In this document: positions 21,701-41,895 of the stretch, piece after piece | Numbering within the stretch: position 1 is the first letter of the stretch | How the letters are laid out: each line of letters opens with the position of its first letter | Assembly: GCA_039889245.1 (NCBI GenBank) | Contig: JAZGVH010000002.1 | Coordinates: 186,001-250,000 of the forward strand | DNA from: Dermatophilaceae bacterium Soc4.6 | GTDB taxonomy: Bacteria > Actinomycetota > Actinomycetes > Actinomycetales > Dermatophilaceae | DNA length: 64,000 bases | Direction: 5' to 3' | Translations under genes and position numbers: made by a program | Notes under the pieces: generated by a model | Told to the model about the DNA's origin: nothing | The model's database searches: none | What the model saw: the letters and a program-made list of their open reading frames with translations, nothing else

Positions 21701-21720
21701 CTAGGAGGTGTCGTGCGGTG

Positions 21721-22998
21721 ATGGGGATGGCTCCGAAGTCCGCCGCGGTGCTGGATCTTGTGCGCTCCGGGGGCGTCCGGTCGGTCTACCAGCCGATCGT
21801 CGACCTCGACACCGGTGCCACGGTCGCCTTCGAGGCGCTGGCGCGTGGCCCGCACGGCCACCCCCTCGAGCGCCCCGACCGGATGTTCGACTCGGCGCGG
21901 GAGCACGGCTGCGTGGGCGAGCTGGACGAGGCGTGTCAGTGGTCGGCGATCACGTCGGCGGTCGCGGCCGGCCTCGGCGCACCGTGGAGCCTCTTCGTCA
22001 ACGTCGAACCAGCCGCCCTCGACTGGGCCATGGTGCGGACGGACGCTGCGGCTGAGGCGGCCGGCGTGGATCGACAGCGCTACCGCGTCGACCTCGACCT
22101 GCCGATCGTGGTCGAGATCACCGAGCGCGACCTCAGCGTCGACCCCCCGTCGCTGCTGCGCTTCGTCGACCGGATCCGCGGCTGGGGCGGTGGTATCGCC
22201 CTGGATGACGTGGGGGCGGAGCGGGCGTCGTTGGCCCTCCTGCCCCTGCTGCGCCCGGATGTCATCAAGCTCGACCTCCGGGTCGTCCAGGAGCGGCCCG
22301 GTCGTGAGATCGCGGAGATCGTGGCGGCCGTCGATGCCGAGGCAGAGCGTTCTGGCACCATCGTCCTCGCGGAGGGGATCGAGACGCCCGAGCACCTCGA
22401 GCACGCGCGTGCTCTCGGTGCCCGGCTCGGCCAGGGCTGGCTCCTGGGCCGCCCCGGCCCGCTCCCCGACCTGTCCACGCTGCCCGCCCCGGCCCCCGGT
22501 GCGATCCGCGTCGAGCACCGGGCCGGGCTGGTCCGCGAGGACTCGCCGTTCACGGTCGCCGCCGCGCACTCGGACCCGCGGACTGCTCGCAAGCTCCTGC
22601 TGACCGAGATCAGCAAGCACCTCGAGAACGAGGCCCTGCATCTGGGCCGAAGTGCTGTCGTCGTCACCGCCCTGCAGCACGTGCGCTTCTTCACCCCGAG
22701 GACGGCCCGGCGGTATGAGCGCCTGGCCGACCAGGTCGCGTTCGCCGCGGTGCTCGGCGAGGACGTGCCCACTCATCCGCTGCCCGGCGTGCGCGGCGGT
22801 CCTCTCCACACCGGCGACCCTCTCCTCGGCGAGTGGGACCTCGCGGTGCTCGGTCCCCACTTCGGGGCAGCGCTGGTCGCCCGAGACCTGGGCGACAGCG
22901 GACCCGACGCGGAGCGCCGCTTCGAGTACGTCCTGACCCACGACCGCGCCGTGGCCGTCGCCGTCGCCGCCGCCCTCCTCTCCCGCGTCACCGGATAG
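21721..22998 (+). CDS. EAL-DICT c-di-GMP phosphodiesterase-like protein
   Basis: A 425-residue soluble protein. An EAL domain fills about residues 5-250: FEALARG near 36, VNVEP near 90, EITERD near 130, DDVGAERASL near 158, KLDL near 180 and AEGIET near 215. All metal and catalytic residues of active EAL phosphodiesterases appear conserved, although the usual DDFGTGYSSL loop is DDVGAERASL. A DICT domain follows (about 280-425), a module found with c-di-GMP enzymes and histidine kinases. There is no GGDEF. AGGAGGTG (21703-21710) serves this ATG or the GTG one codon earlier. A close paralogue lies at 38354. Confidence 0.88.
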   Translation: MGMAPKSAAVLDLVRSGGVRSVYQPIVDLDTGATVAFEALARGPHGHPLERPDRMFDSAREHGCVGELDEACQWSAITSAVAAGLGAPWSLFVNVEPAALDWAMVRTDAAAEAAGVDRQRYRVDLDLPIVVEITERDLSVDPPSLLRFVDRIRGWGGGIALDDVGAERASLALLPLLRPDVIKLDLRVVQERPGREIAEIVAAVDAEAERSGTIVLAEGIETPEHLEHARALGARLGQGWLLGRPGPLPDLSTLPAPAPGAIRVEHRAGLVREDSPFTVAAAHSDPRTARKLLLTEISKHLENEALHLGRSAVVVTALQHVRFFTPRTARRYERLADQVAFAAVLGEDVPTHPLPGVRGGPLHTGDPLLGEWDLAVLGPHFGAALVARDLGDSGPDAERRFEYVLTHDRAVAVAVAAALLSRVTG

Positions 22999-23002
22999 CC
23001 GT

Positions 23003-23095
23003 GAGCTGGCGGCACTCGTCGCCCGGCTGCTCGCCGAGGACCCGGACGACCGGCCCCAGAGCGGCCACGAGCTGGCGCTCGTCCTCGGCGAGTGA
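23003..23095 (+). pseudogene. C-terminal relic of a Ser/Thr protein kinase
   Basis: The 101 bases between the EAL gene and the prepilin peptidase read, in one frame to a TGA, ELAALVARLLAEDPDDRP then QSGHELALVLGE. LVxxLLxxDPxxRP is the last helix of Hanks-type serine/threonine kinase domains. Nothing upstream encodes the rest of a kinase. It is a scrap of a lost gene, only 30 codons long, so the identification rests on one motif. Confidence 0.5.
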
Positions 23096-23099
23096 GTGC

Positions 23100-23882
23100 T
23101 CAGTGCGGATAGACCGCAGCGATGGTGTCTGCCGCGAAGATCGCGAAGACCGCGCCACCGATCATGAAGGGTCCGAAGGGGATCGCGGTCTTGCGGCTGG
23201 CGGCGCCCGTCGCCATCAGGAGCACGCCGACCACGGCGCCGAAGACGAACCCCGCGGCCGCCCCCACCAGCAGGGCAGCCACCGACAGGTAGCCGAGCAC
23301 GAGACCGAGCACCCCCGCCAGCTTCAGGTCGCCGGCGCCCATCCCGCCGGGGTAGGCCGCGACGAGCACTGCATACAGGGCCAGCATGGCTCCGGCGCCG
23401 AGGCCGGCACGGGCGAGGGGCCACCAGTCCCCGTCGACCCCTGCCGAGACCGCGAGCAGCGCGCCCAGCACGGGGTAGGACGGCAGGACCAGCACGTTGG
23501 GCAACCTCCGGCAGTCGAGGTCGATGGCGCCCAGAGCGACGCCCAGGGCGGCGAAGGTGAGGTAGGCGGGGAGGGCGCTGACGAGCCCGAGCTGGTCCAG
23601 CCGCCAGGCCAGCGCCACGAACAGGGTCGCGGTGCCCACCTCCACCAGCGGGTAGCGCGCACTGATCCGTGCACCGCAGTCGGCGCAGCGCCCCCGCAGG
23701 GAGAGCCATCCCCACACCGGCACGTTGTGCCGCCGGCGGATGGGCGCGTCGCAGGAGGGGCAGTGAGAGGGCGGCAGCACCAGCGACTCGCCGCGGGGCA
23801 CCCGGTGGATCACGACATTGAGGAACGACCCGATGACCAGGCCCAGTGCTCCAAAGAGGAGCAGGAGGGGCGCACTCGACAT
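23100..23882 (-). CDS. pilD: type IV prepilin peptidase / N-methyltransferase
   Basis: A 260-residue polytopic membrane aspartyl protease (A24 family) that cleaves prepilin leaders after Gly and methylates the new N-terminus. The two CxxC zinc motifs typical of the bifunctional type are at about residues 40 (HCPSCDAPI) and 66 (CADCGARI). Catalytic aspartates are in GAIDLDCRRLP (about 117) and GMGAGDLKL (about 181). The start is the ATG before SSAPLLLLFGALGLVIG; a longer N-terminal extension in the same frame is unlike the family. It is divergent from the major pilin it should process. Confidence 0.93.
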   Translation of the reverse strand: MSSAPLLLLFGALGLVIGSFLNVVIHRVPRGESLVLPPSHCPSCDAPIRRRHNVPVWGWLSLRGRCADCGARISARYPLVEVGTATLFVALAWRLDQLGLVSALPAYLTFAALGVALGAIDLDCRRLPNVLVLPSYPVLGALLAVSAGVDGDWWPLARAGLGAGAMLALYAVLVAAYPGGMGAGDLKLAGVLGLVLGYLSVAALLVGAAAGFVFGAVVGVLLMATGAASRKTAIPFGPFMIGGAVFAIFAADTIAAVYPH

Positions 23883-24002
23883 GACTCCTGCGATCGGTCG
23901 GGGGAGGTGAGCGCCGCAGCACAGGGGCCCACGTCGGTGGCACCCCCTGCTGAGGTCCTCACAAAGATTCTCAACGAAGGGTACGGCGGGTGGCGGAATT
24001 CG

Positions 24003-24039
24003 CACACTTTGACCGTATATATGCTACCTTAATAGGACT
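24003..24039 (+). promoter_or_regulatory. AT-rich promoter of the pilin operon
   Basis: In otherwise GC-rich DNA, this stretch contains TTGACC (24009-24014), the TA-rich run GTATATATGC, and TAATAG (24030-24035). TTGACC with TAATAG leaves 15 bases, slightly short; other registers are possible. The pilin ATG is 67 bases beyond TAATAG and has an AGGAGG site at 24091-24096. The base composition makes a strong promoter likely, as expected for an abundant pilin. Confidence 0.5.
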
Positions 24040-24101
24040 TACCCCCACCACGCGACCCGTCGCGCACCCCCACCTCTCCAGTTCGAGCCCAGGAGGCTCC
24101 C

Positions 24102-24548
24102 ATGTTGGTCAAGAAGCTCCAGACCCTGCGTGCCGAGCGCGAGCGCGGTGAGCACGGCTTCACCCTGATCGAGCTGCTTGTGGTCGTCGTGATCATCGGC
24201 ATCCTCATCGCCATCGCCATCCCCCTCTACCTCAACTACCAGAAGGGTGCGAAGAACAGCACCGCTGCCTCCGACACCCGCAACGCCGTCGCGGCCGTCG
24301 AGGCCTGCTACGCCGAGAACTCCAACGCCTACCCGGCGAACCCCGCTGCGGCACCAGCAGCCGGAGCCGCGGTCACCCTGACGTGCGGGTCCTCGACTCA
24401 GACCCTCAACGTCAGCCCCGACAACGTCCTGACCTACAACAAGGGGACGACGGGCTACACCGTCCTGACCGTCGCCGGGAACCCCGGCACCCAGAAGTAC
24501 ACCTACGACAGCCTGACGGGCAAGACCACAAGCGCTCCGAAGCCCTGA
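24102..24548 (+). CDS. pilA: type IV major pilin
   Basis: A 148-residue prepilin. The 19-residue basic leader ends GEHG, and cleavage before Phe20 leaves FTLIELLVVVVIIGILIAIA, a textbook N-methylated pilin helix with Glu5 of the mature chain. The globular part has two cysteines (EACYAEN and LTCGSS) that could form a disulfide, and Thr/Ala/Pro-rich loops. AGGAGG lies 5 bases upstream. It heads a run of assembly and minor-pilin genes and is preceded by the strongest-looking promoter in the window. Confidence 0.95.
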   Translation: MLVKKLQTLRAERERGEHGFTLIELLVVVVIIGILIAIAIPLYLNYQKGAKNSTAASDTRNAVAAVEACYAENSNAYPANPAAAPAAGAAVTLTCGSSTQTLNVSPDNVLTYNKGTTGYTVLTVAGNPGTQKYTYDSLTGKTTSAPKP

Positions 24549-24625
24549 CCACTGACATGACCAGGTGAGGTGGGCCCGCTCAGGGCCGCTCCATCGCCGG
24601 ACAACGACCTGACGGGAGACGTCAC

Positions 24626-25729
24626 GTGTGGCACCATCAGCGCGGTAGCAGGAAGGCCCGGACGGCCGGCCGTTTCAGGATCGTCAACACCGACGGCCGC
24701 ATCATCGGTCTCGACATCGGGGCCACGGCGGTCCGGGCCGCCGTCCTCACCCTCACGGTGAGCGACGAGGGCCACCCGGTGGTGGACTCCCACGGGCTGG
24801 GCCAGGCGGCCCTGCCCGTGGGAGCGGTGGTCAACGGTGCCGTCGTGGACTCGGCCGCTGTCACGGCGGCCCTCAAGGAGCTCTGGCGTGCCCACGGGTT
24901 CACGTGCCACAACGTCATCCTCGGGGTCAACAACCAGCAGGTGGTCGTCCGCGACCTCCAGATGCCGGTGCTGCCCCCCGCGCAGATGGCGATGGCGCTG
25001 CCCTTCAGGGCCCGTGACATCGTCGCCCTCCCGCTCGAGCAGGCCCTCATCGACTTCATGCCGCTGGGCGATCCCGACCCGGCCACCGGGCTCCAGGGCG
25101 GGCTCCTCGTCGCCGCTCCCCGCGCCCCCGTGCTCGGGGCCGTGCAGGCCGTGGAGCGAGCCGGTCTCCACGTCGCCCGGGTCGACCTGTCGAACTTCGC
25201 CGGCCTGCGGTCGACCGCCCGTCAGGACATGGCGGCTGAGGCGGTCATCGACCTCGGTGCCCACCTCAGCGCCCTCGTCATCCACCACCACGGGGTGCCC
25301 CGGATCGTGCGCACCATCGCCCAGGGCGGTGAGGTGCTCACCAGGAGCCTCGTCGAGGCCATGGAGCTGAGCCGCGGCGACGCCGAGTGGGCGAAGATCG
25401 ACAACGGGCTCATCGGCTCGCACGCCGAGGTCGTGCGGGTCCTCACGAGGGCGGTCCGACCCCTCCTGGCCGAGATCCGCAGCTCGATCCAGTACTTCGC
25501 CTCGGTCAGCAACGGCGGCCAGGTGGAGAGCGTCGCGCTCACGGGCGCCGCTGCCGCTCTCCCGGGTCTCGGGTCCCTCCTGAGCGAGCAGATCGGGGTC
25601 CCGGTGCGGATCGTCGCGCCGCTGGAGCACGTGCGCCACGGCTGGCGGGGCTCGCGCGACGCTCACGTCGACGACGAGCGCAACGCCACGGCGGTCTCGG
25701 TCGGTCTTGCCATGGGGGCAGCGGCATGA
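24626..25729 (+). CDS. pilM: type IV pilus assembly protein PilM
   Basis: A 367-residue actin-like ATPase-fold protein (FtsA/PilM family) that sits on the cytoplasmic face and binds the PilN N-terminus. GLDIGATAVRAAVL near residue 28 is the phosphate-1 motif, EAVIDLGAHLSALVI near 205 is phosphate-2, and VALTGAAAALPGLGSLL near 310 is the adenosine motif. The GTG start has GGGAG about 10 bases upstream. Its stop overlaps the PilN start, so M, N and O are translationally coupled. Confidence 0.92.
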   Translation: MWHHQRGSRKARTAGRFRIVNTDGRIIGLDIGATAVRAAVLTLTVSDEGHPVVDSHGLGQAALPVGAVVNGAVVDSAAVTAALKELWRAHGFTCHNVILGVNNQQVVVRDLQMPVLPPAQMAMALPFRARDIVALPLEQALIDFMPLGDPDPATGLQGGLLVAAPRAPVLGAVQAVERAGLHVARVDLSNFAGLRSTARQDMAAEAVIDLGAHLSALVIHHHGVPRIVRTIAQGGEVLTRSLVEAMELSRGDAEWAKIDNGLIGSHAEVVRVLTRAVRPLLAEIRSSIQYFASVSNGGQVESVALTGAAAALPGLGSLLSEQIGVPVRIVAPLEHVRHGWRGSRDAHVDDERNATAVSVGLAMGAAA

Positions 25730-26421
25730 CCGCCGTGGCCACCCCGGAGCGGCCGTTGTGGGTCGTGGCTGCCGGGTGGGGCATTGCCGCCGACCTCACC
25801 CCCCCGGAGGTCGTCGCGTCCCGACGCCTGAGTGGGCTGCGCCGCCGGATCACCATCGCCCTCACCGTGCTGGCCGTGGTCATCGCGGGAGGCTATACCG
25901 CGGCCATGAGGGAGAACTCCACGGCCCACGACCAGACCGTCGCCGAGCAGGGGCGCACCGCAGCACTGCTGGCCCAGCAGCGGCAGTATCGCGACCTCAC
26001 CCAGACCCAGGCCAAGCTCACCCTGACGCGCATCCAGGTGGCCTCGCTGATGTCTGCTGACGTCGACGTCAGCAGGCTGCTCACCACGGTGAACGGCCCC
26101 CTCCCGACGACCATGAGCATCAAGACCCTTGCGGTGAACCTCATCCAGGCCACCGTCACCACGGGCGTCGGGAGCGCCGGGGGCCTCGACACGTCAGGTC
26201 GGGCGCCGATCGGCACCGTCGTCATCGGTGGCACCGCGGCCAGCTTCGACGACGTCGCCCACTACGCCGACACGCTGGCCCGAACCGCCGGCGTGGTCGA
26301 CGTCGTCCCGACGTCCTCGCAGGTCGACGACACCGGCCTGCAGTACAGCCTGACCTTCACCCTCACGGACACCCTGCTCAGCAAGCGCTTCGACCTCAGG
26401 ACGGGAGCCGACACGCCATGA
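25726..26421 (+). CDS. pilN: type IV pilus inner-membrane protein PilN
   Basis: A 231-residue bitopic protein with a short cytoplasmic N-terminus, one membrane helix (about 42-61, ITIALTVLAVVIAGGYTAAM), a coiled-coil stretch (about 65-110) and a small alpha/beta domain with the pattern GTVVIGGTAASFDDVAHYAD. This is the PilN architecture. It should bridge PilM in the cytoplasm and PilO outside the membrane. It overlaps pilM and pilO by four bases at each end. Confidence 0.85.
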   Translation: MTAVATPERPLWVVAAGWGIAADLTPPEVVASRRLSGLRRRITIALTVLAVVIAGGYTAAMRENSTAHDQTVAEQGRTAALLAQQRQYRDLTQTQAKLTLTRIQVASLMSADVDVSRLLTTVNGPLPTTMSIKTLAVNLIQATVTTGVGSAGGLDTSGRAPIGTVVIGGTAASFDDVAHYADTLARTAGVVDVVPTSSQVDDTGLQYSLTFTLTDTLLSKRFDLRTGADTP

Positions 26422-27104
26422 GAACCCTGTTTGCCGAGCGGCGCGCGTGGATGGGTCTGGGGGTCCTGCTCGCGGTCCTCCTCGTCGCCACCGGCTGGTT
26501 CGCGCTCATCGGCCCCCTGCAGGCGGACACCGCGTCCCTCGCGAGCCAGGAGACCGACGCCCGCGACCAGAACGTCGTGCTCGCGCAGCGGATCTCGGTG
26601 CTCAAGAGGGACGAGGAGAAGCTGCCTGCGTTGCGGGCCGCTCTCGGCTCTCAGGTGCGCGGCCTGCCCGCCGGCAGTGGCCTGCCCGAGCTCACCCGGC
26701 AGCTGACCGCTCAGGCCAGGACGGCCAGGGTCGACCTCACGAGCGTCGCTGTGGGCGCCATCGCCGCGGTCGTCCGGTCGGCACCGCCGGCCGCAGCGGG
26801 TGCATCGGCCAGCCCGGCGGGCCAGCTCTTCGCGATCCCCGTCACCATCACCACGACCGGCGCCGCCACCAGCCAGATCGCCTTTCTCGCCGCCGTGCAG
26901 CAGGACGGCCCACGACGGGCGCTCCTGGTGTCGACCCAGCTCGCCCCCAGCCCCGTCTCCGCAGCGACCGCACCGGCGGCGGCGGCGACATCGATCAAGG
27001 ACCGCTCGACGATGACGACGGTGCTCACCGTCTTCTCGGCACCACTGAGCCCCGACGACCAGGCGCAGCTCACCCGGCTGATCGCTGGTCCGAGCACGAG
27101 CTGA
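26418..27104 (+). CDS. pilO: type IV pilus inner-membrane protein PilO
   Basis: A 228-residue bitopic protein: a membrane helix at about residues 11-31 (MGLGVLLAVLLVATGWFALI), a coiled coil (about 35-70) and an Ala/Thr-rich extracytoplasmic ferredoxin-like domain. Order, size and coupling to PilN identify it as PilO even though sequence conservation in this family is low. It ends 7 bases before the first of the large pilin-like genes. Confidence 0.82.
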   Translation: MRTLFAERRAWMGLGVLLAVLLVATGWFALIGPLQADTASLASQETDARDQNVVLAQRISVLKRDEEKLPALRAALGSQVRGLPAGSGLPELTRQLTAQARTARVDLTSVAVGAIAAVVRSAPPAAAGASASPAGQLFAIPVTITTTGAATSQIAFLAAVQQDGPRRALLVSTQLAPSPVSAATAPAAAATSIKDRSTMTTVLTVFSAPLSPDDQAQLTRLIAGPSTS

Positions 27105-27111
27105 CCAGCGC

Positions 27112-29391
27112 ATGTCACCCGGCCCGCGGCGGAGCGAGGACGACGGCTTCGTCCTCCTCGAGACGATCGTCTCGATCAGCCTCATCACCGTCATCATGGC
27201 GGCGCTGACGTCGCTCTTCGTCACCGTGATCCGGGTGAACAGCGAGCAGCGGGCGCTCCAGGTGGCTGTGCAGGTGGCCGACAGCACCGCGAGCTACGTC
27301 CGCAGCCTCCCGACCTCAGACCTGCTGACCGGCCGGACTGCTGCCGCGGTCACCGCACAGTGGTCGAGCGCACCCAGCGACGTGCTGCCGTACCTCGCGT
27401 CGATGGAGCAGGGCCTGCCGACGCTGGCCGGTGGCACCGCCGTGCTGCCGATGACGCTCCCGGCGAAGGTCGTGCACGGCATCCCCTACACGGTCAACGT
27501 CTACCTCGGCTGGTGCCACACGGCGGGTGTCGCGGGCGCCGTGGCCCCGACCGCCTGCCTGACGCCGGCCACCGTGCACGACCAGCTGCGCGCAGTGGTC
27601 GCCGTGAGCTGGCCGGACCGGCACTGCGCCACGTCGCCCACCGACCCGGCGCCGACCTGCGCCTACGTCAGCGCCACCCTCCTCAGCACCGGCGTCGATC
27701 CCGTCTTCACCCTCAACCAGGCCGCCGCCGCCGTCCCGGTGATCGCGCTCCCGTCGTTCGCCGACTCCGCGGTCGGCGACCTGGTCGACCTCCAGATGGG
27801 CGTCCAGCCCGGCACCGGCGTGCCGGTGCTGACCTGGACGAAGACCGGCGGCACGTGGCCCCCCGGCGTCAGCATGGACTGGACCGGTCACATCACCGGT
27901 CGCATCACGGCGCAGTCGTCCGGACCGATCACGGTCACCGTGACCGACAGCTTCGTGCGCACGGCGTCTGCGACCTTCACCTGGTCGGTGCTGCCGGCCC
28001 TGCAGGGGTCGGGCCCCGCCACCCGCGACGACGTGCTCGGTGCGCCCATCCCCGCCCTGACCCTCAGCGCGACGGGGGGCGCCGGAGGGCCCTACACCTG
28101 GTCCGACCCCACAGGTAGCCTGCCCGTCGGCCTGAGCATCACCTCTGCCGGCGTCGTCAGCGGCACGCCGACCGCAGTAGCCCCGCCCTACCCCCACGCC
28201 TATGACGTGCTGCTGACCGTGGCCGACAAGACCGTCAACCGCAAGGCGACCGTCGCCGTCAGGTGGACGATCCGCTACCCGCCGGTCGTCGTCGTCAACC
28301 CGGGCACACGGACGGACTCCGTGGGTCACCCGGTCACCCCTCTCCAGCTCGCGGCCACGGGCGGGCAGGCTCCCTACACCTGGAGCGCCACCGGGTTGCC
28401 GGCGGGTCTCACGGTGACCTCGTCCGGCCTGGTGACCGGCACCGTCAGCTCCGTCGGCAGCAGCGCGGCGACGATCACCGCGAGGGACCAGCAGGGCACC
28501 ACAGCTCCCGTCACCTTCACCTGGACGGTCGTCGCCGGGCCGACGATCGCGACCCCGCCGACGCAGTCCACCTCGGCGGGGGCCACCGTCAGCGTCGCCG
28601 TAGCCACGACCTGTACCCACAGCCCGTGCACCTACTCCGCGAGCGGCCTGCCGGGCGGGCTCAGCTTCGTCGGCGGCGTGATCACCGGCGCACCCACGAC
28701 GCAGGGGACCGTCACCGGTGCCACCGTCAGCGTCACCGACGTCGACGGCGTCACGGCGACGTCCGGGTCCTTCACCTGGGTGGTAACCCCTCCTGTGCCC
28801 CCGACCGTCACCACCCCCGGCACGCTCACCTCCAGTGTCGGCTCGCCGGTCAAGATCCGTGTGGCCTCGACGTGCTCCGTGGGTCCCTGCACCTACACCC
28901 TCGTCAACGCACCGACCGGCGTCAGCATCGACGGCACCGGCGTGTTGACCTCGACGGCCATCGGGGGGACCGCGACAAGCTACACCACGACCAGGGTCAG
29001 CGTCACGGACAAGAACGGCGCCACGGCGACGAGCGCAGCCTTCACGTGGACCGTGGCCAGCCAGCGATTCATCTCGGCGACGTGGCCGGTCGCGACCAGC
29101 CCGGGTGACACGCCTGACCAGCCACTGGCCTACAGCTGTCAGCCCTCCAATGGCATCGGCACCTGCACCGTGAGCGTCACGGGGCTCCCCTCGGGGATCG
29201 GTCTCAGCACCACCGCCGGCAACACCACGACCAACCACCCCGCCTCGATCCAGGTGTCGCCGGGCACCGGCACCCTGTGGTTGAACGGGACGGTGGCCGG
29301 CAATGCCGCGCGCGTCGGCGCGACGGTCACCCTGAGCGTCTCCGGGGACCTCTGGTCCGGCACCGACTCCGGCACCTGGACCGTCCAGTGA
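27112..29391 (+). CDS. giant pilin-like protein with five Ig-like repeats
   Basis: A 759-residue protein with a prepilin N-terminus: short leader SEDDG, predicted cleavage after Gly12, then FVLLETIVSISLITVIMAAL with Glu at mature position 5. After a pilin-like region to about residue 200 come five repeats of 85-95 residues (about 205-293, 294-390, 391-477, 478-562, 563-650). Each has a P-x-TW/CTYS-x-GLPxGLS core and a closing FTW(T/S)V strand, as in He_PIG/putative-Ig domains. A related C-terminal unit follows. This is likely a minor pilin at the tip presenting an adhesive rod. It is coupled to the next pilin gene by a GTGA overlap. Confidence 0.87.
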   Translation: MSPGPRRSEDDGFVLLETIVSISLITVIMAALTSLFVTVIRVNSEQRALQVAVQVADSTASYVRSLPTSDLLTGRTAAAVTAQWSSAPSDVLPYLASMEQGLPTLAGGTAVLPMTLPAKVVHGIPYTVNVYLGWCHTAGVAGAVAPTACLTPATVHDQLRAVVAVSWPDRHCATSPTDPAPTCAYVSATLLSTGVDPVFTLNQAAAAVPVIALPSFADSAVGDLVDLQMGVQPGTGVPVLTWTKTGGTWPPGVSMDWTGHITGRITAQSSGPITVTVTDSFVRTASATFTWSVLPALQGSGPATRDDVLGAPIPALTLSATGGAGGPYTWSDPTGSLPVGLSITSAGVVSGTPTAVAPPYPHAYDVLLTVADKTVNRKATVAVRWTIRYPPVVVVNPGTRTDSVGHPVTPLQLAATGGQAPYTWSATGLPAGLTVTSSGLVTGTVSSVGSSAATITARDQQGTTAPVTFTWTVVAGPTIATPPTQSTSAGATVSVAVATTCTHSPCTYSASGLPGGLSFVGGVITGAPTTQGTVTGATVSVTDVDGVTATSGSFTWVVTPPVPPTVTTPGTLTSSVGSPVKIRVASTCSVGPCTYTLVNAPTGVSIDGTGVLTSTAIGGTATSYTTTRVSVTDKNGATATSAAFTWTVASQRFISATWPVATSPGDTPDQPLAYSCQPSNGIGTCTVSVTGLPSGIGLSTTAGNTTTNHPASIQVSPGTGTLWLNGTVAGNAARVGATVTLSVSGDLWSGTDSGTWTVQ

Positions 29392-31699: not shown

Positions 31700-31714
31700 G
31701 GCCGGGGCCGGCCC
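31699..31714 (+). terminator. GC hairpin at the end of the pilin operon
   Basis: GGGCCGG and CCGGCCC are perfect inverted arms with a 2-base spacer, beginning on the last base of the stop codon. It is a candidate terminator or 3' stabiliser. There is no U-tract. Confidence 0.4.
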
Positions 31715-32379: not shown

Positions 32380-32407
32380 TGACCCTCAAGCTCGTGCCGG
32401 CAGGACG

Positions 32408-33634: not shown

Positions 33635-33637
33635 GAC

Positions 33638-34759
33638 CTAGATCCTCGCCAGCCGCTTGAACTCGGTGATGTCCTGACAGACGTCCAGGGCGGTCCCGCG
33701 GCTCACGAGCTGCGAGTGGTAGAGCTCGGCGAGGTGCTGGTCGAAGCCGATCATCCCCAGCTCCCGTGAGGACTGGAGCACCGACGGGATCTGGTGGGCC
33801 TTTCCTTCGCGGACCAGGTTGCGGATCGCCGGCGAGGCGATCATCACCTCGCAGACCGCGACCCGGCCCCTGCCCTCCTTGCGTGGGATGAGCGACTGGG
33901 TGACGACACCCTGGAGGCAGTTGGCGAGCTGGGCCCGGATCTGCCCCTGCTGGTGCGGTGGGTAGATGTCGATGACCCGGTCGATGGTCTGGGCGGCCGA
34001 CTGGGTGTGCAGGGTGGCCAGGACCAGGTGCCCGGTCTCGGCTGCCGTCAGGGCCACCGACGTCGTCTCGAGGTCGCGGAGCTCACCGACGAGGATGATG
34101 TCGGGGTCCTGGCGCAGGGCGTGCCGCAGGGCGGTGGGGAAGCTCTCGGTGTCGCCCCCCACCTCGCGCTGGTTGACGACGCACCGCTTGTGGGTGTGGA
34201 GGTACTCGATCGGGTCCTCGACGGTCATGATGTGGCCGGTGCGGGTGCGGTTGGCCACGTCGAGCAGGCTGGCGAGCGTCGTGGACTTGCCCGACCCCGT
34301 GGGTCCGGTGACCAGCACGAGGCCGCGCGGCAGCCCGGCGAAGGACTCGACCGCGGCGGGCATCCCGAGCTCGTCGAGGCCGCGGATGGCGAAGGGGATC
34401 GCCCGCATCGCCGTCCCGACGGCGCCACGCTGGCGGAAGACGTTCATCCGGAACCGTCCCACTCCCGGCAGCGAGTAGGCGAGGTCGAGCTCACCGTCGC
34501 GGGTGAAGGTCTGCCACTGCTCCGAGGTGAGGATCGAGCGCACCATGATCTCGGTGTCGGCGTTGCTGAGGGGCTCACGCCCGGGCACGCGGGCCAGCAC
34601 ACCGTCGATGCGGTAGCACGGCGCGATCCCGGTGGTCACGTGCAGGTCGGACCCGCCGACCGCCACCATGGTGGTGAGCAGCTCGTTGATGTCGCGACGT
34701 TGGCGGGTGTCCTCGTAGACGGAGGGGGATGCCTCGGTGTAGGTCTCGAGCGTCGTCAT
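33638..34759 (-). CDS. pilT: pilus retraction ATPase PilT
   Basis: A 373-residue hexameric AAA-like ATPase. Walker A GPTGSGKSTT is near residue 150, the Asp box VEDPIEYLH near 182, Walker B ILVGELRDLET near 220, and the His box ATLHTQSAAQTIDR near 245. PilT powers pilus retraction and twitching. The length and an N-terminal PAS-like region without the MshEN domain separate it from PilB. A functional retraction ATPase argues that the pili are dynamic. Confidence 0.95.
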   Translation of the reverse strand: MTTLETYTEASPSVYEDTRQRRDINELLTTMVAVGGSDLHVTTGIAPCYRIDGVLARVPGREPLSNADTEIMVRSILTSEQWQTFTRDGELDLAYSLPGVGRFRMNVFRQRGAVGTAMRAIPFAIRGLDELGMPAAVESFAGLPRGLVLVTGPTGSGKSTTLASLLDVANRTRTGHIMTVEDPIEYLHTHKRCVVNQREVGGDTESFPTALRHALRQDPDIILVGELRDLETTSVALTAAETGHLVLATLHTQSAAQTIDRVIDIYPPHQQGQIRAQLANCLQGVVTQSLIPRKEGRGRVAVCEVMIASPAIRNLVREGKAHQIPSVLQSSRELGMIGFDQHLAELYHSQLVSRGTALDVCQDITEFKRLARI

Positions 34760-34807
34760 GCGGTTCTCCAGGGTGTGGGGGGTGAGCCGGCGGCATACGG
34801 GGAGGCG

Positions 34808-36544
34808 CTAGATGGTCACGCGGAGGACCTCCGCGACGGTGGTCTTGCCCTGCGCCGCCTTGAGCAGGCCGTCGTCGCGGAGGCTGATCATGCCTTCGGC
34901 ACGGGCGACCTTGGCGATCTCGGTTGCCGGGGCCTGGGCCACCGTGAGGCGGGCGATCTCCTCACTGACGGGCATGATCTCGGTGACGGCGAGGCGCCCG
35001 CGAAATCCAGTGTGGGAGCAGGAGCGGCAGCCCACGGCGCGCCACAGCCGGGTCGGCGCAGGGATCGTCTCGACGGGCCAACGGGCGGCGTCGAGCTCTG
35101 CGGTCGTCGGGCTGTAGGCCTCACGGCACCAGTGGCAGAGCAGCCGCGCCAGCCGCTGCGCGAGGACGCAGTCGAGGGACGAGGCGACGAGGAAGGGCTC
35201 GATGCCCATCTCCACGAGCCTCGTCATCGAGCTGGGCGCGTCGTTGGTGTGCAGGGTCGAGAGCACCAGGTGACCGGTGAGGGCCGCTTCGATCGCGAGC
35301 TGGGCCGTGGCGCGGTCACGGATCTCGCCGATCAGGACGACATCGGGGTCCGAGCGCAGGATGGCCGGCAGGACGGCCGCGAAGGTGAGCCCGGCCTTGG
35401 GGTTGACCTGGACCTGGTTGACCCCGTTGACCCGGTACTCCACCGGGTCCTCGACGGTGATCACGTTGACCTCCGAGCTGGAGATCTTGGTGAGCGTGGC
35501 GTAGAGCGTGGTCGACTTGCCCGACCCGGTCGGACCGGTCACGAGCACCATGCCGTGAGGCTTGGTGAAGCTGGTCCGGAACAGGTCGTAGTTGGAGTCG
35601 GTGAACCCGAGCTTCTTGAGGTCGAGGTCGAGCCCCCCGGTGTCGAGGACCCGCAGGACGACCTTCTCGCCCCACACGGTGGGCAGGGTCGCGACCCGCA
35701 GGTCGATGCCGCGATTGCCGATGTCCATCGTGATCCGCCCGTTCTGGGGGACCCGGCGCTCGGTGATGTCGAGGCCGGAGACGATCTTCAGCCGAGAGAT
35801 CAACGCCGACTGGATCCCTCGGGGCACCGAGTCGACCTCGTGCAGGACACCGTCGATCCGCAACCTGATCCGCATCGCGTGCTCGCTCGGCTCGAGGTGG
35901 ATGTCGGATGCCCTGGCCGTGATCGCCCGCTCCAGCAGGGAGTTGACGAAGCGGACGACCGGCGTGTCGTTGGTCGAGGCGCTGAGCGACTCGGTGGCCG
36001 CCGCACCGTCGTCGGCGACGACCTGGGTCGCGACGTCACCGAGGTCGGCGTTGTCCCGGGTGTAGCGGTTGAGCAGCCTGGTCAGCTCCTCCGCCGAGGC
36101 GACCACGGGCTTGACCGTGAGCCCGGTGGCCGAGCGGATGTCGTCTAGGGCGAGGACGTTGCCGGGGTCGGCGACCGCGACGACGATGACGTCACCGTCG
36201 ATGGCGACCGCCAGCATCCGGTGCCGGCGGGCGATCGCCAGCGGCACGCGGTCCATGGCCTTGGGGTCCAGTGGGTAGTTGGCGAGGTCGAGCGGCTCGA
36301 GGCCGTAGGCTTCGGCCACCGCGGACGCCATCTCGAACTCGGTGATGACGCGATCCTCGACCAGGATCGACTGCAGCGGACGCCCGGTGTGGCGCGCCTT
36401 CGTGGTCGCCTCGCGCAACGCCTCCCGGCTCATCCCCGCGGAGAGGAGCGCCGCGATGACCCCGCGCAGGTCGCTGTCCCGCCGGCGCAGTCGCCCGTCG
36501 ACGTCGCTGACCGCAGCGTCGTCGAGGGCCGCTTCTGTCGTCAT
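34808..36544 (-). CDS. pilB: pilus assembly ATPase PilB
   Basis: A 578-residue GspE/PilB extension ATPase. An N-terminal MshEN-type domain (about 30-150) contains the RVPLAIARRHRMLAVAIDGD pattern; in other bacteria such domains bind c-di-GMP. Walker A GPTGSGKSTT is near 337, Walker B VLIGEIRDRAT near 400, and the tetracysteine zinc motif is LLCHWC near 468 with CRSCSH near 505. It is first in the minus-strand B-T-C operon. The c-di-GMP enzymes on both flanks make ligand control of this ATPase plausible. Confidence 0.95.
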   Translation of the reverse strand: MTTEAALDDAAVSDVDGRLRRRDSDLRGVIAALLSAGMSREALREATTKARHTGRPLQSILVEDRVITEFEMASAVAEAYGLEPLDLANYPLDPKAMDRVPLAIARRHRMLAVAIDGDVIVVAVADPGNVLALDDIRSATGLTVKPVVASAEELTRLLNRYTRDNADLGDVATQVVADDGAAATESLSASTNDTPVVRFVNSLLERAITARASDIHLEPSEHAMRIRLRIDGVLHEVDSVPRGIQSALISRLKIVSGLDITERRVPQNGRITMDIGNRGIDLRVATLPTVWGEKVVLRVLDTGGLDLDLKKLGFTDSNYDLFRTSFTKPHGMVLVTGPTGSGKSTTLYATLTKISSSEVNVITVEDPVEYRVNGVNQVQVNPKAGLTFAAVLPAILRSDPDVVLIGEIRDRATAQLAIEAALTGHLVLSTLHTNDAPSSMTRLVEMGIEPFLVASSLDCVLAQRLARLLCHWCREAYSPTTAELDAARWPVETIPAPTRLWRAVGCRSCSHTGFRGRLAVTEIMPVSEEIARLTVAQAPATEIAKVARAEGMISLRDDGLLKAAQGKTTVAEVLRVTI

Positions 36545-36573
36545 GGAACACCCCGAATCCTGGAGGGTAAATC

Positions 36574-36602
36574 ATCATCTAACTGGGCATTTCGCCCAAC
36601 AA
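36574..36602 (-). promoter_or_regulatory. promoter of the pilB-pilT-pilC operon
   Basis: Reading the minus strand, TTGTTG (36597-36602) is followed after exactly 17 bases by GATGAT (36574-36579), about 30 bases before the pilB ATG. The spacer contains a small hairpin, TGGGC-GAAAT-GCCCA. The region is locally AT-rich. Confidence 0.5.
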
Positions 36603-36699
36603 TACACGACGATTCAGGCGGGTGGAACGGGCCAGACCATGGCAAAACCCGCCTCCGCAACGGCCTCAGGTCGGTGCGGAAGCGGCCGATAGCAGACAC

Positions 36700-38247
36700 G
36701 TGAGACGACGCTCGGGGCTACCGTGGGCATCCGTGGCACCGCTGGCTGCGACCATCGCGTCGTTCATGCTCCTGGTGCGGTTCCAGCCTGCCGGACCGCA
36801 GGTCGGCCGGGCGGTCGACGACGTCGGTCAGCTCCTGGCGGCGGCGGCGGCGGCGGTCGTGTGCGCCTGGCGCGCCCGACGATCAGCACCGCAAGTGGCT
36901 CGATCCTGGTGGTGGCTGGCCGCCGGGACCGCCTCGTGGGCGCTCGGCGAGACCACATGGTCCTATTACGAGCTGGTCGCCGATCGTCAGACCCCCTTCC
37001 CGTCGGTGGCGGACGCCGGCTTCCTGCTCTTCCCCGTCCTGGCGGCGATCGGGCTCCTCCAGTGGCCCTCGACGGTCTCGCGGGGCACGACCCGATGGCG
37101 GTCCCTGCTCGACGGGGTCCTGGTGGCCGGTGCCCTGCTCATCCTGAGCTGGGTCACCGCACTGGGAAGCACGGTGACCGCAGGCGGGACCAGCGGGCTC
37201 GGGTTCGCCGTCTCGCTGGGATATCCGCTCTTCGACCTGATGCTGCTGACGCTGACCGTCGTCATCGTCACCTACACGCGAGCGACCCGGTCAGGTCTTG
37301 CGGTGCTGGCGGTCGGTCTGGCCTGCCTGTGCGTCGCCGACTCCGGCTTCGCCTACCTCACCGCGGCAGGCAGCTACGCCACCGGCTCCCCGGTCGATGC
37401 CGGCTGGTTCGGTGGCTTCCTCCTGATCACCGTCGCGGCCTACCGGGCCACGCCACCTGAGACCGACGCGTCGCAGGGTGCGACGGCAGCACTGGAGTCC
37501 ACGCCGCGGGCCATGCTGCCCTACCTCCCCGCCGGCGTCGGCCTCGGTGTCGCCGTGCACGGCCAGTTCGCGGGCAACGGTGACACGGTCACCCTCGCGG
37601 CCGCCGCCGTGGTGATCGCCGCCCTGCTGGCGAGGCAGCTGCTCGCCGTGCTCGACAACCGGGCGCTGGTCCGCCAGATCCTGGCCGCCCAGCAGGAGCT
37701 GCATCACCTGGCGTTCCACGATCCCCTGACCGGGCTGCCCAACCGCGTCCTCTTCGACGACCGGCTCCGACACAGCCTCGAGCTCCACCAGCGTGACCTC
37801 CGGCCCCTGAGCGTGCTCTACTGCGACCTCGACGGGTTCAAGACCGTCAACGACACGTTCGGGCACGATGTCGGCGACATCGTGCTGCGCAGCGCCGCAG
37901 AGCGCCTCACTGCCGTCACCCGCACCGGCGACACCGCGGCGCGCATCGGCGGTGACGAGTTCGCGATCCTCCTCGAGGACGGCGGAGACCCCCACGAGGT
38001 CGCGAGCCGGATCTTCGCAGCGTTCAGCCGCCCGGTCTCCACGGGGTTGGACGTGGTCCCCCTCGCCACCAGCATCGGGATCGCCCAGCTGCGGCCGGGT
38101 GAGGTCACCCCCACGGCTGAGTCGATGCTCCAGCGCGCCGACAAGGCGATGTACGAAGCCAAGCGCGTGGGCAAGGGAACGGTCGTCACCTGGACAGAGC
38201 AGCCGCGGGCAGCGCCCCAACCCGTGACCCTCGCGACTCCCGCCTGA
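36700..38247 (+). CDS. membrane-bound diguanylate cyclase (GGDEF)
   Basis: A 515-residue protein with eight to ten membrane helices in the first 330 residues (a MASE-like sensor of unassigned type), then a GGDEF domain from about residue 350. LAFHDPLTGLPNR opens the domain and ARIGGDEFAIL carries the intact active site. RTGD, five residues before GGDEF, is a canonical RxxD inhibitory site, so product feedback is expected. It makes c-di-GMP. The GTG at 36700 is chosen because sensible hydrophobic sequence begins soon after; an in-frame GTG at 36622 is possible. It is divergent from pilB. Confidence 0.88.
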   Translation: MRRRSGLPWASVAPLAATIASFMLLVRFQPAGPQVGRAVDDVGQLLAAAAAAVVCAWRARRSAPQVARSWWWLAAGTASWALGETTWSYYELVADRQTPFPSVADAGFLLFPVLAAIGLLQWPSTVSRGTTRWRSLLDGVLVAGALLILSWVTALGSTVTAGGTSGLGFAVSLGYPLFDLMLLTLTVVIVTYTRATRSGLAVLAVGLACLCVADSGFAYLTAAGSYATGSPVDAGWFGGFLLITVAAYRATPPETDASQGATAALESTPRAMLPYLPAGVGLGVAVHGQFAGNGDTVTLAAAAVVIAALLARQLLAVLDNRALVRQILAAQQELHHLAFHDPLTGLPNRVLFDDRLRHSLELHQRDLRPLSVLYCDLDGFKTVNDTFGHDVGDIVLRSAAERLTAVTRTGDTAARIGGDEFAILLEDGGDPHEVASRIFAAFSRPVSTGLDVVPLATSIGIAQLRPGEVTPTAESMLQRADKAMYEAKRVGKGTVVTWTEQPRAAPQPVTLATPA

Positions 38248-38353
38248 GCTGGAAGACGGTGAGCGGGGGTAGCCTGCTCAGGTTCGTGCGGCCGACGCCG
38301 ATGCCACGGGCAGCGCCCTGTTCGAGTGGCGTCCTATCTTGGTCTGGGGGTGT

Positions 38354-39637
38354 GTGGCGTTGACGGTGGGGTCATCTGCTCGTTCGGACGTCCTTGAGCT
38401 CGTGCAGGCAAAGGGTCTCCGCTCCGTGTACCAGCCGATCGTCGACCTCGACACCGGTGCCGTGGTGGGCTTCGAGGCCCTGACCCGTGGTCCGGTCGGC
38501 CATCCTCTCGAGCGCCCCGACCGGATGTTCGAGGTCGCGCGGGCAGACCGGTGCGTGGGAGAGCTGGACGAGGCCTGCCGGTGGTCCGCGATCGACGGCG
38601 CCGTCGCAGGCGGCCTCCGGACGCCGTGGAGCCTCTTCGTCAACGTCGAACCGTCGGGCGTCGACTGGATGATGAAGCGGGCAGCGGCCAGCAGCGAGCG
38701 GGCCCAGGCGCGCCGTCGGGTCGCGCGCGACCTGTCGCTCATCCTCGAGATCACCGAGCGCGACCTCCTCCTCAACCCGCCCGCGCTGCTGCGCTACGTC
38801 GACCAGGTGCGATCCTGGGGCTACGGCATCGCCCTGGACGACGTGGGGGCCGAGCGGGCATCGTTGGCCCTCCTGCCGCTGCTGCGTCCGGATGTGATCA
38901 AGCTCGACCTGAGCCTCGTGCAGGGGCAGCCCGGCAGCGACGTCGCCGAGGTGGTCTCCGCGGTCAACGCCGAGGCCGAGCGTTCGGGGGCGCTCATCCT
39001 CGCCGAAGGCATCGAGACCCCCCAGCACCGCGAGTTCGCGCGCGGTCTGGGGGCCCGACTGGGTCAGGGCTGGCTGCTCGGGCGACCGGGACCCCTGCCA
39101 GACCTCTCGGCCGTGCCGACGCCGGCGCCGGGGACGATCCCTGTCGAGCGTCGCACGGGGCTGGTCCTCGACGCATCCCCCTTCGAGATCGCCTGGGCCC
39201 ACTCCAGCCCGCGGACCGCGCGCAGGGAGCTGCTGGTCGAGATCGGCGAGCACCTCGAGCGCGCGGCGCTGAGTCTTGGTCACAGCGCCGTCGTCGTCGC
39301 CGCGATGCAGCACGTCTCGTCCTTCACCCCCGCGACCGCCCAGCGGTATGCCGAGCTGTCCGACACCGTGGCCTTCGCCGCGGTGCTCGGTGTGGGGATG
39401 CCGGCCCAGCCGCTCCCCGGCCTCCGGGGCGGTTCCCTCGCGGCGACGGACCCCGTCGTCGGCGAGTGGGACATCGCGGTGATCGGTCCCCACTTCGGGG
39501 CGGCGCTGGTCTCCCGTGACCTCGGCGACAGCGGACCGGACGCCACGCGGCGCTTCGACTACGTGCTCACCCACGATCGCGACGTCGCCGTCGCCGTCGC
39601 CGCCGCCCTCATCTCGCGTGTCTCCCGCGCACCCTAG
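38354..39637 (+). CDS. EAL-DICT c-di-GMP phosphodiesterase-like protein
   Basis: About 427 residues, a close paralogue of the protein at 21721: same QPIVDLDTGAVVGFEALTRG opening, DDVGAERASLALLPLLRPDV loop, AEGIET, then a DICT domain with WDIAVIGPHFGAALVSRDLG. EAL catalytic residues are retained, including Asn in VNVEP and Glu in EITERD. There is no ATG; GTG codons at 38354 and 38366 are candidates and the choice is uncertain. It follows the GGDEF gene by about 100 bases and overlaps the 3' end of the convergent GGDEF-EAL gene by four bases. Confidence 0.87.
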   Translation: MALTVGSSARSDVLELVQAKGLRSVYQPIVDLDTGAVVGFEALTRGPVGHPLERPDRMFEVARADRCVGELDEACRWSAIDGAVAGGLRTPWSLFVNVEPSGVDWMMKRAAASSERAQARRRVARDLSLILEITERDLLLNPPALLRYVDQVRSWGYGIALDDVGAERASLALLPLLRPDVIKLDLSLVQGQPGSDVAEVVSAVNAEAERSGALILAEGIETPQHREFARGLGARLGQGWLLGRPGPLPDLSAVPTPAPGTIPVERRTGLVLDASPFEIAWAHSSPRTARRELLVEIGEHLERAALSLGHSAVVVAAMQHVSSFTPATAQRYAELSDTVAFAAVLGVGMPAQPLPGLRGGSLAATDPVVGEWDIAVIGPHFGAALVSRDLGDSGPDATRRFDYVLTHDRDVAVAVAAALISRVSRAP

Positions 39638-41895
39638 ACGACCTCGAGCGCAGGCCCTGCCGGATGCGTCGGGGCAGGATTGGGCCGTGTGCTCTTGGCC
39701 AGCAGCAGGCGAGCCTGGTCCAGGGGGACGGGCCGGGACCAGAGGTAGCCCTGCCCATAGCTGCAGTCGGCGGCGGTGAGCCAGTCGGCCTGTCCGGCCT
39801 CCTCGACCCCCTCGGCGATCGTCACCAGCTGCAGGCTCTGGCTCATCGCGATGATGGCCTGCGTCAGGGCGGCGTCGTGGGCGTCGGTCGTGACGTTGTC
39901 GACGAACGACTTGTCGACCTTGACGACGTCCACCGGCAGTCGGCGCAGGTAGGCGAGAGAGCTGTATCCCGTGCCGAAGTCGTCGATGGCGATGCGGACC
40001 CGGAGGCTGCGCAGGGCCTCCAGCCGTGCGCTGATGGTGTCGAGGTCTCCGAGCAGGACGCTCTCGATGATCTCGAGCTGGAGGCACTCCGGCGGGAGAC
40101 CCGTGTCGTGCAGCACCTGCTTCACCTCGTCGCAGAAGGTGGGGCTCGCGAGCTGGGCAGCCGCGACGTTCACCGAGATCGTCACCCGACGCCCGGGTGT
40201 CTGCATTCCGACGGCCGCGACGCAGGCCGTGCGCAGGACCCATTGGCCGAGGGGGACGATCTGGCCCGTGCGCTCGGCCGTCGGGATGAAGGAAATCGGC
40301 GGCAGCAGACCCCGCGTGGGGTGCTGCCAGCGGACCAGGGCCTCGAAGCCGGCGATCTCGCCGGTGGTGAGGTCGACGGTCGGCTGGAAGTGCAGGACCA
40401 GCTCGTCGCTGGACAGGGCCTGCTCGAGGTCCACCCGCACCTGCAGCTGCTCCATGGCCTGCTCGTGCAGCCGGGACTCGAAGACGGCGACGCCGGCCTT
40501 GCCGCGGTCCTTCGCCAGATACATCGCCACGTCGGCGTTGCGCAGGATCTCGGCGCTCGACAGGGGCGTGGCCTCCGGCGAGGGTGCGCCGCCCTCGAGG
40601 GCGGCTGCGGTGTCGGAACCACGGGCACCCGGTCCGCTCGCGGCGACGCCGACGCTGACCCCGACCGCGACCTCGCGGCCCTGGAGGAGGATCGGCTCCG
40701 AGACCGACGCGACCACCCGGTGGGCGACGTCGAGGCCGTCGGCGAGGGACGCCCCCTCCATCAGGATCGCGAACTCGTCGCCGCCGAGCCGGGCGACGGT
40801 GTCCCCGATGCGCAGGGCGGCCTGCACCCGCTCGGCGACGTGGACCAGGACCTGGTCGCCGATGTCGTGGCCCGAGCGGTCGTTGACGTCCTTGAAGTCG
40901 TCGAGGTCGCAGAAGAGGACGACGATCTCGGCGTCGTCCGCCTTGCGCCGCTCGATCGCGTGCGCCAGGCGGTCGTTGAAGAGGCGCCGGTTGGCCAGAC
41001 CGGTCAGCGGGTCGTGCAGGGCCTGGTGGGTCAGCTGCTCCTCCAGGGCGACCCGGTCGGTGACGTCGCGCACCGTCAGGACGAAACCCCTGACGGCGCT
41101 GTCGGCCACGAGGTTGACCAGGCTGCCCTCGACCTGCCGGGTGCGACCGTCGGCATGGTGCATGCGCAGGCGTACGGGGTGCTCGTCGTTCGGGGCACTG
41201 CTGACGAGGTGCTGGGCGAGGATCTGGGCATCCTCGGGGGCGATGATCGAGAGCAGCTGACGGCCGGTGAGGTCCTCCGCCGACAGGCCGACGACGGCGA
41301 GAGCGGATGAGGTCGCATACGTGATGGTCGTCGAGGCGTCGAGGACCGCGACGAGGTCGGAGGCGTTGTGCACCAGCGCCGCCAGGCGCTGCTCGCTGAC
41401 CGAGGACGCCTGCTGCTCGGTGATCTGACGCTGCAGCTCACGGTGACGGCCCACGAGCCGACGGAACCACACCATCCACCCCAGCGAGACCACGACCAGC
41501 AGGGCCACGTAGATGAGGTTGGCCTGGACGTCGATGGAGCGCGCCTGAGCGGCCAGCCGCTCCTGCAGGGCATCGGCGGTCGTCCGCACCGTCAGCAGGC
41601 TCCGGGCGTCAGTGGGTGCGACAGACACAGCGCGCGTGGCCTGCTGGAGTGCCTCGAGCTGTCCGCTCGGCACCCCGGCCGCCAGCAGGCCTGGCATCGC
41701 GGCGTCCACGAGGGCAGGGGCCCGGGAGCCGTCGACCTCGTGCAGGCCGCTCGCCAGCTGGACCGCCAGCGTGTGCTGCGCCCGGACGGGTGCCCCTCGC
41801 GAGTAGACGGAGCTGAGGAACATGAACTCGCCGACCACGATCGCCAACGTCACGAGGACGGTCAGCACCCCACGAATCCGCTGAGGCTTCGCCAT
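39634..41895 (-). CDS. PAS-GGDEF-EAL dual-domain c-di-GMP protein
   Basis: A 753-residue membrane sensor: helix at about 10-30, extracytoplasmic domain of about 95 residues, second helix at about 126-145, PAS domain (about 165-285), GGDEF (about 290-465) with ARLGGDEFAILM, and EAL (about 485-735) with FEALVRW, EIIES, DDFGTGYSSLAYLRRL and AEGVE. Both active sites look intact, so either activity or regulated switching is possible. No RxxD inhibitory site is evident; the equivalent position reads RIGD, which may in fact qualify. It is convergent with the EAL-DICT gene. Confidence 0.92.
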   Translation of the reverse strand: MAKPQRIRGVLTVLVTLAIVVGEFMFLSSVYSRGAPVRAQHTLAVQLASGLHEVDGSRAPALVDAAMPGLLAAGVPSGQLEALQQATRAVSVAPTDARSLLTVRTTADALQERLAAQARSIDVQANLIYVALLVVVSLGWMVWFRRLVGRHRELQRQITEQQASSVSEQRLAALVHNASDLVAVLDASTTITYATSSALAVVGLSAEDLTGRQLLSIIAPEDAQILAQHLVSSAPNDEHPVRLRMHHADGRTRQVEGSLVNLVADSAVRGFVLTVRDVTDRVALEEQLTHQALHDPLTGLANRRLFNDRLAHAIERRKADDAEIVVLFCDLDDFKDVNDRSGHDIGDQVLVHVAERVQAALRIGDTVARLGGDEFAILMEGASLADGLDVAHRVVASVSEPILLQGREVAVGVSVGVAASGPGARGSDTAAALEGGAPSPEATPLSSAEILRNADVAMYLAKDRGKAGVAVFESRLHEQAMEQLQVRVDLEQALSSDELVLHFQPTVDLTTGEIAGFEALVRWQHPTRGLLPPISFIPTAERTGQIVPLGQWVLRTACVAAVGMQTPGRRVTISVNVAAAQLASPTFCDEVKQVLHDTGLPPECLQLEIIESVLLGDLDTISARLEALRSLRVRIAIDDFGTGYSSLAYLRRLPVDVVKVDKSFVDNVTTDAHDAALTQAIIAMSQSLQLVTIAEGVEEAGQADWLTAADCSYGQGYLWSRPVPLDQARLLLAKSTRPNPAPTHPAGPALEVV

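Follow-up and report, generated by a model that had tools for sequence, protein, structure and literature searches.

The 64-kb window analysed here (the whole stretch C2:186001-250000 of the 4.81-Mb genome of Dermatophilaceae bacterium Soc4.6, whose own numbering is used for positions below) contains a type IV pilus locus bracketed by four cyclic di-GMP (c-di-GMP) genes. We consider it reasonably probable that the locus encodes a lineage-specific type IVa pilus of the Planobispora/Actinoplanes type that has a lectin-bearing minor pilin and has accreted its c-di-GMP genes, and that control by this nucleotide, if any, does not pass through the MshEN domain of the extension ATPase PilB. As a kind of locus it is unremarkable, and its one instructive feature is a group-wide loss of the MshEN motif.

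A Pfam scan and the translations recovered every gene named in an initial annotation of this DNA, close to where it had placed them: the pilus genes, with an EAL-DICT gene on the left and GGDEF, EAL-DICT and PAS-GGDEF-EAL genes on the right. The features are as follows.

21392..60263, no strand: variable chromosomal slot that houses the pilus genes, bounded by a conserved gene (19151-21391) on one side and tRNA-Leu(gag) on the other
21631..22998, + strand: EAL-DICT protein 1, 455 amino acids (Pfam EAL 1.8e-34, DICT 4e-12), catalytic residues kept, loop 6 DDVGAERAS
23100..24005, - strand: prepilin peptidase PilD (Pfam A24_N_bact 2.9e-34, Peptidase_A24 1.8e-09)
24102..24548, + strand: major pilin PilA, 148 amino acids, GFTLIE leader (Pfam N_methyl 6.6e-09; phmmer matches, same place in relatives)
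24626..25729, + strand: PilM (Pfam PilM_2 2.6e-38)
25726..26421, + strand: PilN, 231 amino acids, named from its position and from weak phmmer matches in some of the relatives
26418..27104, + strand: PilO, 228 amino acids, named on the same grounds as PilN
27112..29391, + strand: minor prepilin 1, 759 amino acids, leader and Glu5 present, array of immunoglobulin (Ig)-like He_PIG domains (3e-32, 5 stretches)
29388..30032, + strand: minor prepilin 2, 214 amino acids, Glu5 present, leader DDEG|SSLLE, matches in some relatives
30029..31699, + strand: minor prepilin 3, 556 amino acids, without Glu5, C-terminal ricin-type beta-trefoil lectin (Ricin_B_lectin 2e-18, 2 stretches)
~31783..32379, + strand: RCC1-repeat protein, start uncertain (RCC1_2 7e-39, 5 stretches)
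32408..33634, - strand: platform protein PilC (T2SSF 3.6e-60, 2 stretches)
33638..34759, - strand: retraction ATPase PilT (T2SSE 9.4e-49; AIRNLVREGK box)
34808..36544, - strand: extension ATPase PilB, N-terminal MshEN domain degenerate (T2SSE 2e-134, MshEN 2.5e-22)
36622..38247, + strand: GGDEF protein, hydrophobic N-terminal part, GGDEF and RxxD present (GGDEF 3.3e-42)
38339..39637, + strand: EAL-DICT protein 2, 432 amino acids (EAL 1.5e-37, DICT 1.2e-06), loop 6 DVGAERAS
39634..41895, - strand: PAS-GGDEF-EAL protein, canonical motifs by eye (EAL 1.6e-71, GGDEF 1.1e-39, PAS 9.7e-12)

Judged from its genes alone, the locus holds the full complement for a type IVa pilus: a pilin carrying a class III leader, a peptidase, PilC, an extension ATPase, PilM/N/O and PilT, the last of these marked by AIRNLVREGK, which we take to be the retraction box. 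PilN and PilO had no match in the Pfam scan, in which PilN was read as a longer version of its frame. The proposal of an actinobacterial pilus with both extension and retraction ATPases is borne out by Pfam and by relatives. From pilM to minor prepilin 3, each gene either overlaps the next by 4 nt or is separated from it by 7 nt, which makes a single operon probable. In the assembled machine, PilB would extend the PilA fibre and PilT would retract it, both acting through PilC above a base of PilM/N/O.

The N-terminal region of PilB had been taken as MshEN-type, and PilB as a c-di-GMP sensor. The Pfam match stands (residues 80-163, before the ATPase), but it covers the C-terminal part of the domain, and the c-di-GMP-binding part, which precedes the match, is degenerate in the window protein. 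The MshEN motif is described as two 24-residue copies with a 5-residue spacer and key Arg, Leu, Gly and Gln residues (PMC5013675), in which Lys or Leu may stand for Arg (PMC11731258). All 69 PilB rows were given a relaxed score (maximum 22) for two tandem motifs, (R/K/L)LGxx..G..L..L..Q; some low-scoring rows had been scored in the wrong register and were redone by alignment, with L052 and L054 kept out of the group counts. At a gap, the alignment is shifted by one residue across the first half of motif 1, and those columns went unused; the Gln columns are unaffected, and G101 aligns poorly.

The window PilB scored 13 of 22, and its tandem motif is degenerate. By eye, it keeps 3 of 14 key residues in the alignment (the first turn Gly and the equivalents of Leu25 and Leu39): Ala stands at both Gln positions, Ile and Gln replace the two LG glycines, Gly and Pro occupy the Arg positions (an ungapped reading retains the first Arg), Arg replaces the second turn Gly, and the six stacking Leu positions comprise two that are kept, three that are Val, Met and Val, and one that is Thr. 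Both Gln are also replaced in 31 of 31 PilBs from Streptosporangiaceae and Micromonosporaceae. Among 30 PilBs from the order of the window genome (hereafter own-order), 15 retain the first Gln (8 have His there) and 26 retain the second; their scores are 20-22 in 12, 15-19 in 13 and 9-12 in 5, so the own-order proteins are mixed too.

In MshE, loss of a single conserved hydrophobic residue weakens binding more than 10-fold, and loss of two or three Leu practically abolishes it (PMC5013675). Set beside the residues missing from the window PilB, these effects make it likely that this protein has lost c-di-GMP binding, as its sequence predicts. Like MshE and the PilB-type receptor PilF GSPII-B, it has an N-terminal MshEN region, but unlike those receptors as they are described, both of its 24-residue motifs are degenerate (PMC5013675, PMC11731258). 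Since the double motif appears degenerate in the window PilB and in its 31 nearest relatives, the sensor assignment is not upheld. This corrects a tempting annotation, because a Pfam match to MshEN does not mean that a PilB binds c-di-GMP. The 31 PilBs of the Actinoplanes/Planobispora relatives and the window protein appear to have lost binding residues which many own-order PilBs keep, and motif-losing and motif-keeping proteins provide a natural comparison for what MshEN sensing does.

The proposed circuit was also staked on gene order in relatives, and there the flanking c-di-GMP genes are not conserved beside the pil genes. The comparison used 68 other PilB loci, 30 of them own-order (flanks of up to ~19 kb either way, shorter where a contig ends; 30 of the 42 other-genome places at least 50% identical, with 35 places at 41-46% left out) and 38 named (flanks of up to 10 kb either way), plus 35 EAL-DICT loci (flanks of up to ~10 kb either way, again shorter where a contig ends), which comprised 34 of the 35 own-order places in other genomes down to E 1e-98 and one locus from the sister species G149. 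In the flanks searched, an EAL-DICT gene was found near PilB in 0 of 68 loci, and a pil gene near EAL-DICT in 0 of 35. Coordinates were also compared by hand in 27 other genomes of the order that carry an EAL-DICT-like match (E<=1e-30) as well as a PilB (E<=1e-120): the two lie on different contigs in 23, and in the other 4 they share a contig at a distance of at least ~170 kb. The own order has two types of PilB, 50-58% and 41-46% identical to the window protein, and several genomes carry both.

Some c-di-GMP gene, at scattered places, is present in 10 of the 30 own-order PilB loci, and in 0 of the 13 that are neither own-order nor from Micromonosporaceae. Of the 25 Micromonosporaceae loci (12 assigned to the family by the PilB tree, the others by genus name), 22 have a homologous GGDEF-EAL gene whose start lies 4-10 kb upstream of pilB; among the three that do not, L026 has an upstream flank of just 4 kb. 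The identity of these neighbours to the L033 row is 60-89%, and they occur although PilB there has lost the MshEN motif. The window PAS-GGDEF-EAL gene was considered as their orthologue and rejected: another gene of the window genome scores higher against 19 of the 22, two tie and one favours the window gene, with all window-genome proteins at ~38-44% identity.

The distribution and phylogeny of PilB suggest that the pilus was not inherited within the family. A PilB (E<=1e-100) is found in 4 of 186 family genomes, including the window genome, and two of the other three are just 40% identical; within the genus, it is present in one of three genomes, that of the window. In a PilB tree rooted with an outgroup (59 of 72 rows, with 13 close Micromonosporaceae left out), the window protein is sister to Streptosporangiaceae plus Micromonosporaceae (SH-like approximate likelihood-ratio test, SH-aLRT, 100), apart from the 30 own-order rows. 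An approximately unbiased (AU) test on the ATPase part of PilB (43 of 69 rows, with 26 close, long or deep rows left out) gave p = 0.035 against joining the window to its own order. The possibility that the window PilB is an ordinary member of its order was rejected on this tree and test, with a long branch and a post hoc group, both weighed below, as cautions. The shared motif loss and the partly shared minor pilins point in the same direction as the PilB tree.

The chromosome on either side of the locus is conserved and the DNA between is not. The genome of G149, a species of the same genus represented by one contig, is collinear with the window on the left up to 21,364 and on the right from tRNA-Leu at 60,264, with ~34 kb of other DNA between these flanks (G149:C1:3578000-3616500 region), which places the pilus in a variable slot. 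Eight proteins scanned from the G149 slot were CheA, CheB, two methyl-accepting chemotaxis proteins, a CshA-repeat adhesin, a peroxidase with RTX repeats, a multicopper oxidase and a solute-binding protein. The pilus locus was probably gained as a block into this slot beside tRNA-Leu, and the four c-di-GMP genes would have come to adjoin it in the window lineage. This pilus type, with a lectin-bearing minor pilin, is seen here outside the two families in which its nearest relatives were found.

The minor pilins carry an Ig array (minor prepilin 1) and a ricin-type lectin (minor prepilin 3), neither of which had been recorded in the initial annotation. Glu5 is missing from minor prepilin 3 in 8 of 8 aligned rows, which, by comparison with pilins of the GspK/PilX type, fits a place at the tip. 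The three minor prepilins, one with the Ig array and one lacking Glu5 and carrying the lectin, probably form an adhesive, sugar-binding tip, and the pilus is most likely a retractile adhesion fibre with the lectin at its end. An AlphaFold model of minor pilin 3 has a mean predicted local distance difference test score (pLDDT) of 46.6 and is usable for the N-terminal helix alone. With phmmer, the Ig and lectin minor pilins have matches at 6 of the 6 loci from Streptosporangiaceae and at 9 of the 25 from Micromonosporaceae, and in own-order loci the Ig minor pilin was matched in 0 of 30 and the lectin minor pilin in 3 of 30. Pfam confirmed both domains in the four loci scanned (L019, L022, L026 and L033), all picked from matching loci, with 4 He_PIG stretches each. 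Lectin-bearing modular minor pilins at the tip are known from Streptococcus sanguinis, whose PilB and PilC minor pilins are described, like those of the window, as large, with C-terminal Ig or lectin modules and a proposed tip complex (PMC9934059). The window proteins differ from that account in having a ricin-type beta-trefoil instead of a concanavalin-like lectin, and in placing the Ig array on a separate pilin (PMC9934059). The RCC1-repeat gene, also unmentioned before, lies next after the minor pilin genes.

The bracketing c-di-GMP genes form a real, non-random cluster. The genome has 16 c-di-GMP genes, merged by hand from 12 EAL and 14 GGDEF matches; four of the ~16 start within 18.0 kb (P = 2.8e-4 for random placement anywhere in the genome) and three start within 2.1 kb (P = 3.0e-4). 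The single PilZ match in the genome is far from the locus. As the initial annotation noted, the two EAL-DICT proteins are close paralogues at opposite edges (69-70% identical; the next best in the order is at 55%). By eye, the catalytic residues of the GGDEF and EAL proteins are largely intact: the EAL-DICT proteins have the EAL, N, E, DD, K, E and Q residues, a list we take to be that of the EAL phosphodiesterase active site, and their loop 6 is DVGAERAS in both, not the canonical DFGTGYSS. The pilB and GGDEF genes are divergent with a 77-nt gap between them, and the GGDEF and EAL-DICT 2 genes are co-directional and 91 nt apart; these last two could share the divergent promoter region with pilBTC. 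It is plausible that the adjoining genes act as local regulators, which stand beside pili in the window lineage only, among the relatives examined. Any c-di-GMP tuning would more likely run through transcription or through the EAL-DICT and GGDEF proteins than through PilB MshEN, a direct effect on PilB being the least probable of these routes.

Several observations weigh against a pilus of this type acquired as a block, with c-di-GMP genes accreted around it and PilB sensing lost. In MshE, altering Arg9, Asp12 or Gln32 weakens binding about fivefold at most (PMC5013675), so the motif loss in PilB would be compatible with weak binding. The c-di-GMP gene cluster is non-random, and adjacency confined to one lineage can still be functional. 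The window PilB row has a long branch that the program flagged, a first tree had already been seen when the group for the AU test was named, and a five-gene tree (42 of 69 rows, no outgroup) does not decide the question, since it recovers the own-order loci and the Streptosporangiaceae/Micromonosporaceae loci as one group each with the window between them. No second copy of the tRNA end was found in the window, and no integrase among 12 of the 14 open reading frames called to the right of the locus (the other two, of 65 and 73 codons, were unscanned), so a mobile element is unsupported. Finally, an Ig or lectin minor pilin match was not found after pilO, within the available flank, in 16 of the 25 Micromonosporaceae loci; the tip set therefore varies and is not fixed in the pilus type, and the idea that these minor pilins are general to that type was rejected.

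Among other explanations, it is possible, if doubtful, that the neighbourhood reflects coincidental lineage-specific insertions into a variable slot, with c-di-GMP genes that serve other outputs. The differing slot content of sister species and the unconserved c-di-GMP neighbours of pil genes agree with this, as does the presence of other c-di-GMP genes within ~10 kb at 13 of the 35 EAL-DICT loci, all without pili, which indicates that such clusters are not rare; the clustering probability of 2.8e-4 argues against it, and so does the finding that 22 of 25 Micromonosporaceae loci also have a GGDEF-EAL gene upstream of pilB. An unlikely proposal is that the EAL-DICT proteins would be FimX-like c-di-GMP receptors or scaffolds, recruiting or gating PilB in place of its lost MshEN sensor. 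FimX is known elsewhere to work with PilB (PMC11656802). The genome's only two DICT matches are these two proteins at the two edges of the pil locus, 30 of 35 homologues are EAL-DICT-GGDEF fusions (loci L202-L236), so that the window proteins are versions without the cyclase, and their loop 6 departs from the DDFGTGYSS of the window PAS-GGDEF-EAL protein. However, the DDVGA change is common to 12 of 13 aligned homologues, in a family that has no pil gene nearby at any of 35 loci, and the catalytic residues look intact. No described function for the DICT domain was found in the literature searched on DICT with EAL or diguanylate. It is hardly probable, as a wider version of this proposal, that an actinobacterial pilus clade lost c-di-GMP sensing by PilB and that control was rebuilt in the window lineage by GGDEF-less EAL-DICT receptors or phosphodiesterases gating the pilus; if true, this would give the uncharacterised DICT domain a FimX-like role. 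A dedicated local circuit acting directly on PilB through MshEN to tune extension and retraction, as initially proposed, is very unlikely: four genes with largely intact catalytic residues do bracket the pil genes in a non-random cluster, Pfam does match MshEN and MshE-type control is established elsewhere (PMC5013675, PMC11656802), but the binding part of PilB is degenerate and the linkage recurs at none of the PilB or EAL-DICT loci compared.

The favoured reading, of a Planobispora/Actinoplanes-type pilus with accreted c-di-GMP genes, can be set beside the actinobacterial systems already described. The initial annotation held that such integration is little described in Actinobacteria; a 2019 review names the Tad/Flp type (Tfpc) as the only type studied there (PMC6916266), which agrees with that claim, but c-di-GMP control of actinobacterial pili has already been reported in Rubrobacter. 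In that genus, a c-di-GMP/sigma switch, (RsiG)2-(c-di-GMP)2-WhiG, acts over type IV pili, and diguanylate cyclase and phosphodiesterase genes lie in or near pil clusters, as c-di-GMP genes do in the window (PMC8325347). The Rubrobacter control is a sigma/anti-sigma switch (PMC8325347), and no promoter of that type turned up at the window pil genes: a scan of 21.0-42.5 kb for WhiG-type promoters (spacing of 14-16, our own choice) gave a single match, with two mismatches, inside pilC. The genome does have a gene for a FliA/WhiG-family sigma at C2:299373-300020, ~50 kb beyond the window.

Loci of the Actinoplanes group have the same pil gene set, in the order B-T-C-A-D-M-N-O, with PilBs 60-62% identical to that of the window; in the window, pilBTC is inverted and convergent and pilD is reversed. 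The Ig and lectin minor pilins after pilO are shared by the window and the 9 matching Micromonosporaceae loci. Actinoplanes zoospore pili are reported to be transcribed by WhiG-like sigma factors (PMC8325347). Actinoplanes missouriensis itself is absent from the compared loci, and its zoospore pili (Kimura 2019) are known here through PMC8325347; the window differs from them in that the scan found no WhiG-type promoter at its pil genes, and in its c-di-GMP neighbours.

Elsewhere in the slot, between the locus and the tRNA side (42992-49187), the window encodes a PRC-barrel protein, a P-type cation ATPase, a GH65 enzyme and a HAD hydrolase.

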